A stretch of 64,000 nt of DNA from Vulcanimicrobiota bacterium. GTDB lineage: Bacteria > Vulcanimicrobiota > Xenobia > Xenobiales > JADMJV01. The notes under the pieces are model-generated. The model was not told the DNA's origin. It worked only from the letters and a program-made list of their open reading frames with translations, and did no database searches. Shown in pieces: positions 45,503 to 56,814 of this stretch. The DNA lies in the NCBI GenBank assembly GCA_019637395.1, contig JAHBVR010000009.1, positions 62,001-126,000 of the forward strand, in the 5' to 3' direction. The position numbers and the translations under genes were made by a program. Position 1 is the first letter of the stretch. Each line of letters begins with the position of its first letter.

Positions 45503-45613
45503 TGCCGCGCCCAATTTGCGATTCTTTTTGGAAGAAAAGGGGCTCCCCAACGACCGGAGGATTTCCCTGCCTCTAGGGGAAGCTGATTTTATCTATCTAT
45601 GGGGAGTCATCTT

Positions 45614-46828
45614 ATGACCAAAAAGCTTGCAACTCTTACTTTGGGACTACTGCTCTGTGGATCGTCCTGGGCTCAAGACGAGCCGGTCGTTCGGGTCCAA
45701 AGCATCGGCAAAGTTTCGCAGTCTGCTCCAAGCAAACTCATCCAGAAGAGGCCAAACGACAAGGACGGATTTCCGGTCACTCTCAACACGACCGGATATG
45801 TCAAAGACCACTATGTAACCGACCAGAACACCCTGGCGGCCTTGGAATTCCTCATCGGTGGACGAGTCGGCATCAACAAAGACACCGACATCATGATCGT
45901 CAATGAACGCTCCGTCGCGGACGGCAAGACGCCCACCAAACGGGTCGTGCTCAAAAGTGGCGGACTCTGGGTCAAAGCCGATGCGAAAAGCCTCAAGCAG
46001 CCGCTGGAGATTCAAACCAACGGTGGCGTTATGGGCATCAAAGGCACCGAATTCACCGTCGAATCTCAAGCGGACGGCTCCGCCAAGGTTTGCTGTTTCG
46101 AAAGCAACAGCGATATCGGCGGCGTGGAAATCCGCGACAATTCCGGCAAAGTCGTCGGCGTGGCCAAACCGGGAGACGAATACCTGATCAGCCTGAAGGC
46201 GGCCCCGGTGGTCAAACACTACGAAAACATCGAAGAATTTCGCAACCAGCGCATCGATGCCTGGGGAGTCCGCAACCATCCGGCTTTCCAGGCGGCCATG
46301 TCGGTAGCCAGCATCGCCGGTGTGCCAGGCATCGGCACGGCCAGCGGGGCTCTCTGGGCAGCGGATTCTATTGCCAACTGCGAAAGAGACCCGGCCGGCG
46401 CCACTCTGGCCGCTTTGAGTCTGGCCAATCAGGCCGGAGCCAATACGGGGGCGGCGGGAAGCTACCTCGGCTGGGGCGCCTCGATCTACAATGCCACCAA
46501 GAGCAACGAGCCCCCCAAGGCCGACTATCCCACTCAGTTGTCACCGGACAACTCTCCCAAAAGTCAGAGCAGCGTGAGGACAACCTCAGGTTTTCCCAGC
46601 TTCAGCTGGAAAGGCCTGGATGAGGCTCGCAGCTACGTCGTCATGGTCGCTAAAGACGAGAACATGTACGACGTCGTATTTACCGACCAGACCCAGAATC
46701 AGCAATTGACCTATCCGTCCTACCTGAGACCCCTGCCCAAGGGCCAGTACTACTGGCGCGTAATTCCCGTCAATGATGAGGACAAACCGGTCGAGCGCTC
46801 CTCGCAAACCTACTTCATGGTCCAGTAG
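45614..46828 (+). CDS. Exported FecR-domain protein
   Basis: 404 residues from the ATG at 45614, which has GGGAG 7 nt upstream. Signal peptide KKLATLTLGLLLCGSSWAQ. A FecR domain covers about 35-180 (TLAALEFLIGGRVGINKDTDI, LKSGGLWVKA, LEIQTNGGVMGIKGTEFTV). A Gly/Ala-rich hydrophobic stretch lies at about 225-290 and a C-terminal Ig/fibronectin-like domain at about 315-400 (LPKGQYYWRVIPVNDED). This architecture is the non-TonB kind often found beside CHASE2 cyclases. It is directly followed by a paralogue. Confidence 0.85.
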   Translation: MTKKLATLTLGLLLCGSSWAQDEPVVRVQSIGKVSQSAPSKLIQKRPNDKDGFPVTLNTTGYVKDHYVTDQNTLAALEFLIGGRVGINKDTDIMIVNERSVADGKTPTKRVVLKSGGLWVKADAKSLKQPLEIQTNGGVMGIKGTEFTVESQADGSAKVCCFESNSDIGGVEIRDNSGKVVGVAKPGDEYLISLKAAPVVKHYENIEEFRNQRIDAWGVRNHPAFQAAMSVASIAGVPGIGTASGALWAADSIANCERDPAGATLAALSLANQAGANTGAAGSYLGWGASIYNATKSNEPPKADYPTQLSPDNSPKSQSSVRTTSGFPSFSWKGLDEARSYVVMVAKDENMYDVVFTDQTQNQQLTYPSYLRPLPKGQYYWRVIPVNDEDKPVERSSQTYFMVQ

Positions 46829-47908
46829 ATGCGGAAACCAGCTCTCGCCTGGCTGCTGTTGATTTGCTCCCCGGCTGCGGGATGGGCCGAGGAGCCCGTC
46901 CTGCGGCTGATCAACATCCAGGGCGTCGGTGCCGCACCCCACATGCAGCGCCGCGCCGCTGGTGACAGCAAATGGTACCAGGCTTTCCTGGGGACCGAGG
47001 GCTACCTGGCCGATCATTTCAAAACCGATGCCCAAACGGTGGCCGCCCTGGAATTCGCCATCGGCGGTCGGGTAGCCATCAGCCGGGATACCGAGATTGA
47101 AGTGCTCAGCGAGCGCAGCGTCAACGCAATTTCCGCTTCCCAGCGGGTGCTCATGCGCAGTGGCCACCTCTGGATGAGGTCTGCCCGGCCGCTGGCGCGT
47201 CCCCTGGAAATCCAGACCAACGGTGGCACCCTTGGCATCAAGGGCACCGAATTCACGGTAGAGGCGCTGCCCGATCAGACCCAGGTGGCGGTGATGGAAG
47301 GAGCGGTGGAAGTCAAAGACCTGCAGGCCAAATACCTGGGAGTGGCTCAGGCGGGGGATGTTTATCACCTGAAAACCAACCCGAAGCCGGAAGACGTTCT
47401 CGCCGTGGAGCACCTTGATCCAAACCAGATGCAGGGCTACAAGGAAAGCTTCCTGCTCAGGGCCGAGTTGGCCAGTATTCGTCAGTCCCTGGAGCAGAGC
47501 GCCAGAACGCACCTGAACGAGCTTATGCAAAAACTCGAGGGCCTGAAGGGCGTCGACGAGCACGTCAATCGAGGTATGGTCGAACCCTTTGGGGCGGCTA
47601 TCGGCATGAGCCCCAGCGGCGGCTTTGCTCTGTCCACCAGGAACACCTCGCCGCTCGGAACGACCTTTGCCTGGGACAACGTGCCCGGGGCGGACGGCTA
47701 CGTCATTTTCGTTTCGGATACGGCCCAGTTCAACAACATTCTCTTTTCCGACCGAGTGCGCGACACTCGCGCCGTTTACCCAGAAACCGCCCGACCCTTG
47801 AAACCCGGCCGCTACTACTGGCGAATCATCCCCGTGGGGAACAACGACCAGGTCTTGGAGGGTGTCGGAGCCGCCCAATCTACCTTCGAAATCTCCGCCA
47901 CGCAGTAA
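46829..47908 (+). CDS. Exported FecR-domain protein (paralogue)
   Basis: 359 residues, starting immediately after the previous stop. Signal peptide RKPALAWLLLICSPAAGWA. The FecR domain is closely similar to that of 45614 (VAALEFAIGGRVAISRDTEI and LEIQTNGGTLGIKGTEFTV), so a tandem duplication is likely. The Gly/Ala stretch is absent and replaced by a helical linker (about 195-245). The C-terminal Ig-like domain ends LKPGRYYWRIIPVGNNDQV. The cyclase gene starts at the next base after the stop. Confidence 0.85.
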   Translation: MRKPALAWLLLICSPAAGWAEEPVLRLINIQGVGAAPHMQRRAAGDSKWYQAFLGTEGYLADHFKTDAQTVAALEFAIGGRVAISRDTEIEVLSERSVNAISASQRVLMRSGHLWMRSARPLARPLEIQTNGGTLGIKGTEFTVEALPDQTQVAVMEGAVEVKDLQAKYLGVAQAGDVYHLKTNPKPEDVLAVEHLDPNQMQGYKESFLLRAELASIRQSLEQSARTHLNELMQKLEGLKGVDEHVNRGMVEPFGAAIGMSPSGGFALSTRNTSPLGTTFAWDNVPGADGYVIFVSDTAQFNNILFSDRVRDTRAVYPETARPLKPGRYYWRIIPVGNNDQVLEGVGAAQSTFEISATQ

Positions 47909-49711
47909 ATGCTCAACTTCAAGGCCTGGCTGCGGAGACTGGTGGTGGGCTGGTGCTTCACGCTGGCCTCCTTTGGCATCCTGGCTCTGTTCCCACGCGT
48001 CGAATTATCCCTGTATGACAAACTGATCGCCTATTACCGAGATATTCCCGAGTGGGTGCGCCAACGCTACCCGGCCTTGAGCCGGGGCGAAATGGTGTTG
48101 CACCGGTCCATCACCCTCATCGGCGATCACAGCGGCGAAAGCCGGCGGCAAGTCGAGATTCTGCGGCGTTTGCGGGCGGACTTCGCGGCGGCGGCCTGCT
48201 GGATCACCAATCAAGAGGAAAAGCTTCCCAACGATCTGGCCAATCAGAGCCTGGAAACAAACCTGGTCTACTCGGTGACCTCGGTCCCGCGCTGGGACGG
48301 CAAATCCAAAGAGCCTCCCCCCCTCGTCCTCAAACAAAGCGAAGTGGACAGCACCGTTCGCGAAGTCTACCTGGCTTTGAAGAGTCCTCAGGGACCGGTG
48401 CCCTGCCTGCCACTCGTCCTCTACGCCCGATTTCTGAATGAAACCAATGTGGCACCGGACATCCGGGGCAATACCTTGTGGCTGGGCGACCGCGCCATTC
48501 CCGTCAACGAAGACGAGCAGGGCTACTCGTTCCCCATTATTCCTTACCACCCGCAAGTCAGAGCTCAAATCGACCTCAACACCGCCGGCGTGCCCAGCGT
48601 GGCCGATCCCATGGAGCCACTCAACCTGAGCGATATGCTCGAACTGCCGGAGGCCTTTTTTGGCCAGCGGGTGCGCGATCGATTTTACTTCCTCGGTGAC
48701 TTCTCCATGACCGCGATCGGAGAACATGTCACTTCCCTCGGTCCTTTCCGCGATTTTCAGATCGCCGCCCTGGGCCTGGACACTCTCATTCAGGGTCCCT
48801 ATCTGCGTTGGGTGTCGGGGCCGGCCTGCATCTTCTTCAACTTCCTGCTCTCGAGCGCGCTGGCTCTATGGCTCCTGAGTCCCACCACGGGATGGGGACG
48901 CCTGGTGCGCGCCGTGCTGGCCCTCGTCGCCTGCCAGGTGGGAGCCGGTTGCACCTTCGCAGCCGGCTTCTACTTGCCGCTCACCTGGGCGTTTCTTTAT
49001 GTCATCTTGCTGAACGTTTGGATTCTGGCCAAAATCTGGTGGTCCACGCTCTCCTATTTGAGACGCTACGGAGGAGCCACGGCTGCCCACATGCTGGCCA
49101 CCGGCCAGGTGCACCTGGACCACGGCGTGGCCGAAGAACGTATCGTTACCATTGTTTTCGTGGGCCTGCCCGCCCACCTGCGCCAGCAAGAACTGGAGGA
49201 CGATCCGCTGACGCTCAAACATCGCCAGATCTTCTCCAAGCGTGTAGCCGACATCACGCACCGCCAGCACGGCATCGTGCACGACTTCCAGGCCGATTAC
49301 TTGATGCTGGGCTTCGGCACTCACCCCGGTGAACAAGACGCCAATCACGCGGTCAAAGCTTTCCGAGCGGCCAACGAATTGATCGCCGCCCAAGAGTTCT
49401 TCGAGGAAGCCTGGAAACCAAAGATTTCCGGAGGGGCGCGTGTACAGGTCTCGCTCAACGCCGGCCTGGTCGCCATCGGCTGGGTCGGCACCACCCAACT
49501 CAAGCGCGCTTCGGCCGCTATCGGCGATACCACCAACGTGGCCGCCCGCTTGTTGGGAACGGCCAAGAAGTATGACGTCAATATGATTCTCTCCGAAAGC
49601 GCCTACGAACTCCTGCAGGATCAAGCCCACTTCGAAGCTTTGCCGCCGGTCATGCTGAAAGGCAAGACGGAGGCCGTAGCCATCTATAAGTTGGCGGATC
49701 CCGAAGAATGA
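47909..49711 (+). CDS. CHASE2-domain class III nucleotide cyclase, C2-like half
   Basis: 600 residues: one N-terminal membrane helix (about 10-30), a periplasmic CHASE2 sensor (about 35-290), three membrane helices (about 300-375) and a cytoplasmic class III cyclase domain (about 405-575). The catalytic Asn and Arg are kept: N543 and R547 in IGDTTNVAAR. The first metal Asp is replaced by G419 (VFVGLPAH), while the second is D463; spacing is the canonical 44. The substrate Lys position is D459. Alone it should be poorly active or inactive. It overlaps the next cyclase gene by 4 nt. Confidence 0.85.
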   Translation: MLNFKAWLRRLVVGWCFTLASFGILALFPRVELSLYDKLIAYYRDIPEWVRQRYPALSRGEMVLHRSITLIGDHSGESRRQVEILRRLRADFAAAACWITNQEEKLPNDLANQSLETNLVYSVTSVPRWDGKSKEPPPLVLKQSEVDSTVREVYLALKSPQGPVPCLPLVLYARFLNETNVAPDIRGNTLWLGDRAIPVNEDEQGYSFPIIPYHPQVRAQIDLNTAGVPSVADPMEPLNLSDMLELPEAFFGQRVRDRFYFLGDFSMTAIGEHVTSLGPFRDFQIAALGLDTLIQGPYLRWVSGPACIFFNFLLSSALALWLLSPTTGWGRLVRAVLALVACQVGAGCTFAAGFYLPLTWAFLYVILLNVWILAKIWWSTLSYLRRYGGATAAHMLATGQVHLDHGVAEERIVTIVFVGLPAHLRQQELEDDPLTLKHRQIFSKRVADITHRQHGIVHDFQADYLMLGFGTHPGEQDANHAVKAFRAANELIAAQEFFEEAWKPKISGGARVQVSLNAGLVAIGWVGTTQLKRASAAIGDTTNVAARLLGTAKKYDVNMILSESAYELLQDQAHFEALPPVMLKGKTEAVAIYKLADPEE

Positions 49712-51570
49712 AAAACTTTGGCTGGCTGCTCACCGCCGCGTTGCTGCTGCTGGCCTGGAGCCTGGATGCGGTGCCGCGCCTGAAATCAATGGAAAACCGG
49801 CGCCTGGTGCAACGAATCGCTCGCTCCAGTGATGATCCACCCGACTCATCCATCGTCATTCTGGGGCTGGATGATCGCGTCTTTCAAGAGAACCGCTACA
49901 ATCGTATAGAACACGCTAAAGTCATCGATCGCCTGAGCGCGGCCGGCGCGCGGGCCATCTTCCTGGACCTCATCTTCGACGAAGCGCGCGGACCGGAATT
50001 CGATGTCCCCCTGGCCGAATCGATCCGCAAGAGCGGCAGGGTCACGGTAGCCGGTGTCTATCAGATCGACACCAATGACGCCTTGATGGGCTTGCTCCGT
50101 CCCAAGTTCTTTCCCGAACTGGAGGCGCTGATCCGCTCCAAAGTCTGCCAGATGGGCATCATCAATACCTCGCGCCAGGATAGTAAGAACGAAACCATCG
50201 TAGCCGTGGTCGACAGCGAGCAAGATTCCCGGGTGAACCCCTTCGGGCCCGGATTGCGCTTGAGCGCGGCCGCCGCTCTTTACACCCAGGGCCAGCACCT
50301 GAAGGCCAGCGATGTGGAAGTCCTGCCGCCCAGTCCGTGGCACGGTGACTGGCTGAATATTCCTCCGCTACGCCTGGAGACCTATCGTGCCGAAGAGCGG
50401 GGCATCGTCAACTTGATGGTTCCGCTCACCTTCCATAGACCGGCTACCGGACCGGAAGGCAAGCCGGGCGAGAGCGGGCGTCTGACCGTCATCCCCTACC
50501 TGAAAATTGCGGATGGGGATCCGGACGCCTTGAAGGCGGTCAAAAACAAGTATGTGCTGATCGGCGATACGCGCAGCGGCGAAAGCGACCTGTACAACAC
50601 CCCCGTAGGCAAGATGAAGGGGGTGGAGATCCACGCTCAAGCCCTGGATATGCTCATTCAGAACCGCGTGTCCCGTTTTCCCTTCGAGGGAACCTTCTTC
50701 TTGCATCAGGCGGAACTGGGCATTCTGGTCTTGTGCTTGATGTGCAGCATTCTGCTGGACCGCCAGCCCAACCTGGCCCGTTGCGCGCTGGTGGGGCTCG
50801 GGGGGCTGGCCGTGTGGGAAATCAGCGTCTGGCTCTGCGACCAGGAGCAGATCTATTTGCCCCAGACCCAAGGAGAAATCGCCCTGGTCATCACCTTTGT
50901 GGCCAGCATGTTCGTGCGCCTGCAAACCACCAAGAACATTCTGCGCACCTTCATTCCCTCCGCCATCGTCGACCAGTTGCTGCAGGGTGCCGAGATCCAT
51001 CAGGGCGAGGTAGAGGCCACCGTCATGGTCACCGATATCCGCGGCTACACCACCCTGAGCGAAAGCCGCACGCCCACCGAGGTGCTGGACTTGCTCAACG
51101 ATTACCACACCGAGACGGTGACGCTTTACCAGAAATTCGGCGGTCACGTGCTCAACTATCAAGGCGACGCCCAAATCATTTTGTTCGGCCACCCCAAAGC
51201 CTTAAAAGATGCGCCCCGCCAGGCCATCCTGGCGGCCCAGGCCGCCTCCGGGGCGGTGGAAACGCTGCGCAAGCGCTGGAAGCTCCCCCCCGACCAGGCT
51301 TTTAACGTGGGCGCCGGTATCTGCACCGGCAAAGTCATTATCGCCGACCTCGGTGGCATGCACCGCGAATATACGGTGATCGGCGAAATGGTGCGCAAGT
51401 GCCACAAACTGCAAAGCCAATCCCAGATTCTCAAGGCCAACATCATTTTGGATGAAGAAACCTTCGAGCGCTGCCAGAGCAAACCCGAGGTGGAAAAACG
51501 CGAAAACGTAATCATCGACGGCCTGCCTGAGCCTGTGACGGTCTACATCACCGATCTCGTACCCGATTAA
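49708..51570 (+). CDS. CHASE2-domain class III nucleotide cyclase, C1-like half
   Basis: 620 residues with the same layout: N-terminal helix (3-20), CHASE2 (about 30-310), three membrane helices (about 325-410) and a cyclase domain (about 430-600). Both metal aspartates are present: D443 in VTDIRGYTTLSE and D487 in YQGDAQIILFG. The transition-state residues are lost: the Asn position is R563 and the Arg position K567 (VIGEMVRKCHKLQ). The substrate Lys position is N483. It complements the preceding cyclase, suggesting a heterodimer. Complex I genes follow after 50 nt. Confidence 0.86.
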   Translation: MKNFGWLLTAALLLLAWSLDAVPRLKSMENRRLVQRIARSSDDPPDSSIVILGLDDRVFQENRYNRIEHAKVIDRLSAAGARAIFLDLIFDEARGPEFDVPLAESIRKSGRVTVAGVYQIDTNDALMGLLRPKFFPELEALIRSKVCQMGIINTSRQDSKNETIVAVVDSEQDSRVNPFGPGLRLSAAAALYTQGQHLKASDVEVLPPSPWHGDWLNIPPLRLETYRAEERGIVNLMVPLTFHRPATGPEGKPGESGRLTVIPYLKIADGDPDALKAVKNKYVLIGDTRSGESDLYNTPVGKMKGVEIHAQALDMLIQNRVSRFPFEGTFFLHQAELGILVLCLMCSILLDRQPNLARCALVGLGGLAVWEISVWLCDQEQIYLPQTQGEIALVITFVASMFVRLQTTKNILRTFIPSAIVDQLLQGAEIHQGEVEATVMVTDIRGYTTLSESRTPTEVLDLLNDYHTETVTLYQKFGGHVLNYQGDAQIILFGHPKALKDAPRQAILAAQAASGAVETLRKRWKLPPDQAFNVGAGICTGKVIIADLGGMHREYTVIGEMVRKCHKLQSQSQILKANIILDEETFERCQSKPEVEKRENVIIDGLPEPVTVYITDLVPD

Positions 51571-51620: not shown

Positions 51621-53794
<2,174 letters not shown>

Positions 53795-53798
<4 letters not shown>

Positions 53799-55303
53799 TT
53801 CCCTGGCTCAGTCTGATCATCTGGCTGCCTACCCTGGCCGCCCTCTTCATCGCGGTCACTCCGCGCCATTGGGTCCGGCTCATTCAGGCGCTGGCCCTGA
53901 GTGCCGGAGCCGCTTCCACGTTCCTGAGCATCCGCGTCTTCTTCGCGGGACTGATGGATACGGCGGCACTCAACAAATTTCAAGTGGTCGAGGCACTCCC
54001 CTGGCTGGAAAGCCTGGGCATTCAGTATAAGGTGGGTGTGGACGGACTGTCCCTCAGCATGATTTTGCTGACCGGTCTGGTCAGCCTGGCCGCTCTCTGG
54101 ATGTCGGTCTCCATCGACAAACGTCAAAAAGAGTATTTTGTACTCTGCCTGCTGGCTATCAGCGGTGTCTATGGTGTTTTCGCCTCCATCGACCTCTTCT
54201 TCTTCGTCATCTTCTATGAGCTGGCGTCCATCCCGATGTATTTCCTGGTGGGAATCTGGGGCTCGGACAAGATCGGTTCGGGCCGTCCCATCTACCGGGA
54301 ACGGGCCGCCACCAAGCTGCTGATCTATCTGCAGTTGGGCGGCGGACTGGTGCTGTTGGGCATTTTGGCCCTGTATTTCGCCACCGGCGCCAAGACCTTC
54401 GATCTGCAGATGCTGCTGCAGACCCAGTTGAGCGGCGCCCACCAAAAAGTGCTCTTCCTCATTTTCTTCGTCGGCTTTGCCATTGAGGCTGGATTGGTGC
54501 CGTTGCACACCTGGCTGCCCGAAGGCCACTCCTCGGCTCCCACCCCGCTCTCCATGTTGCTGGCCGGCGTGCTGCTCAAAATGGGAGGCTACGGCATTCT
54601 GCGCTTCTGCCTGCAGCTGACCCCCGACGCCTCGGCCAAATTCCTGCCCGCCTTTGCCATCCTCGGCGCCGTCAATGTTCTCTATGGCGGCCTGTGCGCG
54701 CTCCGGCAAAGCGATGTGAAAGTCATGATCGCTTACTCCAGCGTCAGCCACATGGGCATGTTCTATCTGGGCATCGGCTGCTGTGCGGCCGCTTCCCCCT
54801 TCAACGGCTACGGGGTGCTGGGGGCGCAATTCCAACTTTTCTCGCACGGCGTCATCACCGCCCTGCTCTTTGCCGTAGCCGGCGCCGTCTATAACAAGAC
54901 CCACTCGCGCGACCTCAGGGCCTGGGGCGGGCTGGGGGCGCGCGCTCCCGTTTACACCTTTTTCTACGTGCTGGCCGCCATGGGCTCGCTGGGTCTACCC
55001 GGTATGACCGGCTTCTGGGCGGAGTTCATGGTGCTCTTCGGGACCTGGGGCAGCCAATGGCCGTTGGCCGTGCTGGCCGTACCCGGTCTGCTCATCACTA
55101 CCATGTTCTTGCTTCGCTCCGTGCAATACGGCTTTTTCGGACCGCTCAACCCGGATCATGTAGGCATGCAGGACGCCGACTGGTGGGAACTGGTGGCCTT
55201 CTTGATGCTGGCCACGGCCGCCCTGTGGTTCGGGATCTTCCCGGCCGGGCTGACCGCTACAGTGCTACCGATTCTGCCCGCCCTGATCGGAGGGGCGCTA
55301 TGA
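53795..55303 (+). CDS. nuoM: NADH-quinone oxidoreductase subunit M
   Basis: 502-residue antiporter-like complex I subunit. It shows GVDGLSLSMILLTGL, FYELASIPMYFLVGIWG (key Glu), PLHTWLPEGHSSAPTPLSMLLAGVLLKMG and DVKVMIAYSSVSHMG. The ATG overlaps the nuoL stop by 4 nt and its own stop overlaps nuoN by 4 nt. Confidence 0.96.
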
Positions 55304-56814
55304 ACTGGTCCCATCTACTGGTGCAGTTTACTCCCGAACTGGCGGTGCTGGTTACCGCCGTCTGGGTGATCCTCAGCGATCTGTTTCTGTCGCGCCACCC
55401 CTCGGGACTATGGCGCCAGTGTTTCCTGGGGCTGGCCGCGGCCACCATCGGCGCCGCCTTTCTTTATCAGGTACCGACCCCGGGCGTGGAACTGCCGGCT
55501 ATCATTACGCGCGTGCTGCTGGTATCCCCGTTGACCAGCAGCCTGAAATTCGTGGTGCTGTTGCTGAGTACTCTGGCGGTGGTTTTTTCCTACCGGAGCT
55601 TCGAGGAGACCGAGCGCCACGCCGGTGAGTATTATTCCCTGATCCTGTTTTCCGTGCTGGGCGGCCTGCTGTGCATCTCCAGCCAGGATCTGGTGCTCTT
55701 CTTCATCAGTTTCGAGCTGCTCTCGTTGCCGCTCTATATGCTGTGCGGCTTCCGCCGCTACAACTCGGCCTCGGCTGAAGCCGGCCTCAAATACTTCGTC
55801 AATGGAGCGCTGAGTTCGGCCTTGATGCTCTACGGCATCAGTTGGATTTACGGCAGCCTGGGCAGCACCCATCTGCCCACCCTGGCGGCCAACTACGCGG
55901 TCGTGCCCAGCCCCCCCAGCGGTTTTCTGGTGGGCTGCCTGCTGGTACTCAGCGGGCTGGGCTTCAAAGTGGCAGTGGCGCCCTTTCATACCTGGGCGCC
56001 CGATGTCTACAGCGGAGCTCCGCCGGCGGTGTCCACCTTCCTGGCCAGCGCTCCCAAAGTGACCATTGTGGGCTTCATCCTGCGCCTGTTCTGGCAATCT
56101 CTGGACGGAACCGGTCAGTTTTTCAACCTGCCGGTGGACTGGGTCTTTCTTTTTACGGTGCTGGCGGCCGGCTCGATGTTCGTAGGCAACTTGAGCGCCC
56201 TGCCTCAGCAAGACGTGCGCAAAATCTTCGCTTACTCGGGTATCGCCCAAATCGGCTACATCTTTCTGGGTCTGGCCGCCTGCAACAATCCCCATCCCCA
56301 GCAGTCTTTCAGCGCCGTGCTTTTTTATACAACCGTCTACGGAATTTCCAACCTGGGAGCCTGGGCCGTGCTGGCCGTGCTGGCCCGGGGGCAAGAGCGC
56401 TTCGATCTGGACAGCCTGCGCGGCTTACATCAACGCAATCCGGCGCTGGCCGCCTGTCTGGCTCTATGTCTGATGTCGCTGGCGGGTGTGCCGCCCCTCT
56501 CCGGGTTCATGGGCAAATTCTACTTGTTCCGAGCCATCTACGAGAGCGGGCTGCCCTTTCTGGTGGTGTTGGGCATCCTCAATTCGGTCATTTCTCTCTT
56601 TTACTACTTCAAAGTGTTAAAGGCCGCCTATTTTGTGGAAGCAGAAGACGGAGGAACTTCGTTCCTCCAAGCGCCTTCCGCCGGTCCGGCTTTGCCGATG
56701 GTCCAGCAACTGGCATTCCAGCTCTGTCTATGGTCTAACGTGGTGTTGGGACTGTGGCCGGCCGTCATAGGTGAAGTGGAGCGGGTGGCGAGCACTATAA
56801 CGCAAGGAAGCTAA
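55300..56814 (+). CDS. nuoN: NADH-quinone oxidoreductase subunit N
   Basis: 504 residues from the ATG at 55300 (MNWSHLLVQFTPELAVLV); a longer frame upstream is nuoM shadow. It has FFISFELLSLPLYMLCGFRR, FHTWAPDVYSGAPPAVSTFL and VRKIFAYSGIAQIGY, all complex I hallmarks. Final gene of nuoL-nuoM-nuoN. Confidence 0.96.
   Translation: MNWSHLLVQFTPELAVLVTAVWVILSDLFLSRHPSGLWRQCFLGLAAATIGAAFLYQVPTPGVELPAIITRVLLVSPLTSSLKFVVLLLSTLAVVFSYRSFEETERHAGEYYSLILFSVLGGLLCISSQDLVLFFISFELLSLPLYMLCGFRRYNSASAEAGLKYFVNGALSSALMLYGISWIYGSLGSTHLPTLAANYAVVPSPPSGFLVGCLLVLSGLGFKVAVAPFHTWAPDVYSGAPPAVSTFLASAPKVTIVGFILRLFWQSLDGTGQFFNLPVDWVFLFTVLAAGSMFVGNLSALPQQDVRKIFAYSGIAQIGYIFLGLAACNNPHPQQSFSAVLFYTTVYGISNLGAWAVLAVLARGQERFDLDSLRGLHQRNPALAACLALCLMSLAGVPPLSGFMGKFYLFRAIYESGLPFLVVLGILNSVISLFYYFKVLKAAYFVEAEDGGTSFLQAPSAGPALPMVQQLAFQLCLWSNVVLGLWPAVIGEVERVASTITQGS

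Follow-up and report, generated by a model that had tools for sequence, protein, structure and literature searches.

Complementary active-site losses in adjacent CHASE2-type cyclases of Vulcanimicrobiota suggest a heterodimeric bacterial class III nucleotide cyclase

Can two overlapping cyclase genes, each with an incomplete active site, encode one enzyme between them? A review on membrane adenylyl cyclases from 2022 describes bacterial class III cyclases as monomers that homodimerise, and places the duplication and fusion behind the C1/C2 type in the early eukaryotic cell (PMC9552081). An actinobacterial survey mentions heterodimers (PMC2447327), and a search of the open-access literature turned up no naturally heterodimeric cyclase described from bacteria. 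The question is raised by a 64,000-nucleotide stretch of DNA (the window) from a Candidatus Eremiobacterota / Vulcanimicrobiota genome of 7.66 Mb, in which two adjacent genes, here called A and B, were initially annotated as CHASE2 cyclases predicted to form an obligate heterodimer. This reading is supported by the catalytic residues, by ten of ten gene pairs in this genome and its relatives, by natural fusions of the two genes and by a search of 149 genomes of the phylum in which no lone copy was found. Judging from sequence, we consider it quite probable that A and B pair as subunits of a heterodimeric class III nucleotide cyclase of the membrane that has one working and one dead site, comparable to the cyclases that hormones and nitric oxide control in animals.

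Four genes lie head to tail without gaps at 45599–51570, encoding two FecR-domain proteins, A and B. The first (409 aa; 45599–46828, forward strand; Pfam FecR 34.2 bits) is conserved in the genus, opens the apparent operon and probably encodes an extracytoplasmic partner of the sensor. Its stop codon directly adjoins the ATG of the second (359 aa; 46829–47908, forward; Pfam FecR 50.6 bits), whose own stop directly adjoins the start of A. Subunit A (600 aa; 47909–49711, forward) and subunit B (620 aa; 49708–51570, forward) both combine a sensor, transmembrane (TM) helices and a class III catalytic domain. The sensor is diverged and CHASE2-like in A and a CHASE2 domain in B, and the catalytic domain is of the C2/sGC-beta type in A and of the C1/sGC-alpha type in B (sGC, soluble guanylate cyclase). 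Both reading frames are open as first annotated, and they overlap by 4 nt, the ATG of B lying over the TGA of A (ATGA). Downstream of B on the same strand, at 51621–56814, are nuoL-, nuoM- and nuoN-like genes (NADH dehydrogenase proton-pumping subunits); a nuo-like neighbour is also found 3' of B in genomes G001–G004, and these genes probably form a separate operon.

The assignment to class III holds for both proteins, which score 26.1 bits (A) and 49.1 bits (B) against Guanylate_cyc (PF00211; Pfam cut-off 21.9). Their description as CHASE2 cyclases stands directly for B, with a significant match to CHASE2 (PF05226) of 101 bits, but the N-terminal half of A has no Pfam match and is recognisable only through its relatives: hhalign pairs it with the B/CHASE2 profile at 98.4%, and Pfam CHASE2 is found in the A orthologues of genomes G006, G011 and G012 at 36–78 bits. 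By these profile comparisons, the N-terminal half of A is homologous to CHASE2.

Alignment of the catalytic domains (A, 49106–49708; B, 50950–51567; both forward) reproduced the losses from which the heterodimer had first been proposed. Homodimeric class III cyclases carry two metal-binding Asp, an Asn and an Arg in one chain, and neither protein has this set. In A, the first metal Asp is replaced by Gly (G419, 49163–49165) with a Pro two residues on (P421), and N543 (49535–49537) and R547 (49547–49549) are retained, as is the second metal Asp (D463, 49295–49297), which the initial annotation had not mentioned. B keeps both metal Asp (D443, 51034–51036; D487, 51166–51168) and has Arg in place of Asn (R563, 51394–51396) and Lys in place of Arg (K567, 51406–51408). 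A third complementary loss, beyond those described before, concerns the gamma-phosphate Lys, which is retained in A (K584, 49658–49660) and replaced by Asp in B (D604, 51517–51519). At the base-specifying positions, A has D459/A536 and B has N483/T556. The substrate Lys is thus missing from both chains, as had been pointed out, but this is not specific to the pair: canonical CHASE2 relatives share the D/A combination of A (14 domains of the census described below), where Lys to Asp is common, so the missing Lys is a family trait. For the same reason we rejected a call of the substrate from these residues; the predicted product is cAMP or cGMP, with the residues compatible with either. That D459 and A536, which would specify the base in the composite site, are unusual counts against the proposed enzyme, though canonical relatives have them too.

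Homodimers of either protein would be incomplete, since each would be without one of the two residue sets. In a mixed dimer, a working site would take both metal Asp (D443, D487) from B and N543, R547 and K584 from A, whereas the second site could not catalyse because the first metal Asp of A is missing and the Asn of B is replaced by an invariant Arg. At this dead site, a salt bridge between D463 of A and R563 of B may favour the mixed pair. The periplasmic CHASE2-type domains, probably together with the upstream FecR proteins, would pick up a signal and set the geometry of the two cytoplasmic domains accordingly. This signalling step is suggested by gene order, since at all ten loci the gene immediately upstream of A, or of an A-B fusion, encodes a FecR protein, and by the FecR-CHASE2 cyclase gene neighbourhood known in Campylobacterota (PMC9239204, PMC13001267). 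Dimerisation of A with B, activity and signal are what we infer from the locus.

A search for relatives followed by locus extraction yielded ten A-B pairs in nine genomes, covering three families of one order: five genomes of the window's genus, one of the same family with two copies (G005), and three of other families (G006, G011 and G012). The first Asp is lost in every A (Gly in five, Asn in three, Ser in two), the second Asp, Asn, Arg and Lys are kept in every A, and the Pro two residues past the lost Asp, present in all ten, occurs at that site in 0 of 121 other domains. No B has lost either Asp, and in each of them Arg stands where Asn would be expected; at the Arg position K, H or E is found. 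The phosphate Lys is lost in eight of the ten B and still present in G005 fusion 1 and G011, so this loss is not universal. All ten pairs therefore combine one chain bearing both Asp with another bearing Asn and Arg. Motifs that are invariant across the pairs are AAIGDTTN.AARL and the +2 Pro in A, and TDIRGYTTLSE and VR in B. Within the genus, dN/dS is 0.03–0.15 for the catalytic domains vs 0.07–0.34 for the sensor halves, and purifying selection acts strongly on both catalytic domains. It might be supposed that the substitutions are noise of relaxed selection in a decaying duplicate pair, as the low Pfam scores of A and its lack of a Pfam-detectable CHASE2 domain would allow, but dN/dS far below 1 already contradicts this and the invariant motifs of A and B speak against it, leaving it very improbable.

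How unusual these residue patterns are was assessed in a non-redundant census of 147 class III domains, most of them from this phylum. Canonical domains make up 120 of the 147, that is, 120 of the 127 that are neither A nor B. Loss of the first Asp with the rest intact occurs ten times, always in A, and replacement of Asn by Arg with both Asp intact occurs ten times, always in B; since both patterns are confined to A and B, they are more than chance. Of the remaining seven domains, three are fragments or misalignments; the others are L011, with Arg changed to Glu, L195, with Ser/Gln, L013 and the first reading frame of L080. L013 (L013:1-2013; G000:C23) is a lone degenerate TPR-cyclase that has lost several catalytic residues, and L195 (L195:1608-3500, reverse strand; G033:C11) is a TPR-cyclase that keeps both metal Asp and has Ser/Gln at the Asn/Arg positions.

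The occurrence of a few degenerate class III-like domains in the phylum, together with the non-canonical base-specifying residues of the pair, would fit a receptor complex in which neither A nor B is catalytic and the cyclase fold serves only to bind nucleotides or to signal. This is hard to reconcile with the presence of exactly one complete catalytic set between the chains at ten of ten loci, despite the large divergence between families (31–45% identity), or with the strong purifying selection on these domains, and we consider it unlikely. Alternatively, A could be a dead pseudo-cyclase, a regulator or dimerisation partner, with the chemistry done by homodimers of B or by B together with a canonical cyclase. 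Single degenerate cyclase domains do exist in the phylum, as L013 and L195 illustrate, and K567 of B could partly stand in for Arg. However, B is without Asn in all ten pairs and without the phosphate Lys in eight, its Arg position varies, and Asn, Arg and the phosphate Lys are invariant in A, where a non-catalytic regulator would not need them; as A and B are moreover fused in G005, this explanation too has a low probability.

If the two proteins depend on each other, their genes should co-occur, as the initial annotation had suggested checking, and they do so at ten of ten loci, two natural fusions among them. In all eight unfused loci, A and B are adjacent and overlap by 4 nt, with the B start inside the A stop codon; the overlap reads ATGA but GTGA in G006 and TTGA in G012. 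The B gene of G006 (L108:4898-6663; G006:C354) is frameshifted between its CHASE2 and catalytic parts, which is perhaps an assembly error. A single gene carrying the same substitutions, named at the outset as evidence that would overturn the heterodimer, was not seen: profile searches of the phylum's 149 genomes, whose sensitivity to highly diverged copies is limited, returned no A or B beyond the ten loci, and neither gene is present in G010 or G013, which are closely related to G011 and G012. The bit scores of A and B stand apart from other matches in the phylum (252 vs 184 and 261 vs 213), a gap that is partly inflated, the same sequences having trained the profiles. When clades were left out of the profiles, held-out members came first except for the A group of the genus, above which canonical relatives scored, and fusion 2, which was not among the five best; because of these two failures, very divergent lone copies could be missed. 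A scan of 84,980 species genomes for the B motif pattern recovered this clade only, followed by unrelated cyclases at no more than 33% identity. Other neighbouring cyclase pairs with split losses were not found among the extracted loci, and the tandem cyclases of G015:C182, considered as a candidate split pair, were rejected as both are canonical.

Fusion of partners is classic evidence of joint function. In G005, A and B form a single reading frame twice, of 1206 and 1106 aa (L088:5435-9055 and L089:6062-9382, both on the reverse strand; loci L110 and L112 are on the same contigs), each with a FecR gene directly upstream. Both have the layout CHASE2-like/TM/A-catalytic/CHASE2/TM/B-catalytic, with the A half first, and the two are either independent or duplicated. 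AlphaFold models of both fusions were built from shallow alignments (A4, A8) of 16 rows and have pTM values of 0.54–0.57; the catalytic halves are well predicted, though AlphaFold might bring together any two cyclase domains joined in one chain. Compared with the C1-C2 pairs of AC9 and sAC across both halves, the models reach TM-scores of 0.61–0.67 by target length, again on shallow alignments, and the modelled placement of the halves relative to each other appears about right since a lone domain would cover less than half of the targets; with models this shallow, we take the match as no more than support. The best whole-model matches are AC9, AC5 and AC8.

In a tree built without the active-site columns, A forms one clade (100/97) and B another (98/96), both related to canonical CHASE2 cyclases and mirroring each other in a near-identical branching order. 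It follows that the active-site split is at least as old as the common ancestor of the three families, and the fusion is later than the split. As all pairs descend from one ancestral pair, the ten are not ten independent events. We think it likely, if somewhat less so than the heterodimer itself, that Bacteria evolved an obligate heterodimeric class III cyclase of their own, separate in origin from animal sGC and tmAC: a CHASE2 cyclase would have been duplicated, its copies would have lost half-sites reciprocally, and one lineage would then have fused them into a single tmAC-like chain. If so, both steps in the evolution of the heterodimer architecture are visible in living relatives.

The pair had been likened to the C1/C2 arrangement of mammalian tmAC. 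An independent profile search agrees, with A matching C2 of sAC, AC5, AC8 and AC9 as well as sGC beta, and B matching C1 of those enzymes and sGC alpha, but the residue pattern is closest to sGC beta/alpha. Human sGC likewise consists of two related subunits from separate genes with one active and one dead site: in sGC beta, as in A, Gly replaces the first metal Asp while the second Asp, Asn, Arg and Lys remain, and sGC alpha, like B, keeps both Asp, has lost Asn (to Thr) and has Lys for Arg. Homodimers of human sGC are inactive, as their sites cannot be completed (PMC3591389), and by analogy the same logic would apply to A and B. It differs in being soluble, in its haem sensor and in making cGMP, whereas A and B are predicted to sit in the membrane with CHASE2-type sensors, lie next to FecR genes and have other residues at the base-specifying positions. 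The likeness to tmAC lies in the G005 fusions, which repeat its sensor/TM-catalytic-sensor/TM-catalytic layout in one chain, and in C2 of AC2, where Ser replaces Asp with a Pro two residues on (S-I-P; G/N/S-L/V-P in A). Here, however, the C2-like half comes first, the genes are mostly separate, and the two six-helix membrane domains that define the tmAC family (class IIIa) are absent, with CHASE2-type sensor halves in their place.

Among bacterial enzymes, the CHASE2 cyclases of Campylobacterota and Sinorhizobium CyaD1, CyaD2 and CyaK share the architecture of CHASE2 plus cyclase; the CHASE2-type relatives examined have complete residue sets in a single chain, as expected of homodimers, and A and B do not. 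The catalytic fold is common to A, B, Rv1625c, Pseudomonas aeruginosa CyaB and Synechocystis Cya2, and among solved structures CyaB and Cya2 come closest to the A and B domains. Rv1625c, CyaB and Cya2 are homodimers in which every chain has all the residues. Fungal rhodopsin cyclases are heterodimeric for other reasons, RGC1 and RGC2 both keeping all catalytic residues (PMC8815786). One bacterial order would have taken the route that the review places in the early eukaryotic cell, with complementary genes that are separate in most species and a fused chain in one. The pair offers a tractable system in which to ask why cyclases become asymmetric, and bears on the purpose of the dead second site (forskolin's site in animals) and on how two different sensors gate one active site.

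Two further cyclases of the phylum may be mentioned. The window's genome encodes an FHA-cyclase whose catalytic Arg is changed to Glu (L011:709-2034; G000:C21) and, elsewhere, a canonical FHA-cyclase (L006; G000:C12); the former could be a member of another split pair. In a 903-aa protein of genome G014 (L074:1307-4018, reverse strand; G014:C340), a canonical cyclase domain precedes a second domain with weak resemblance to cyclases (E about 1e-5).
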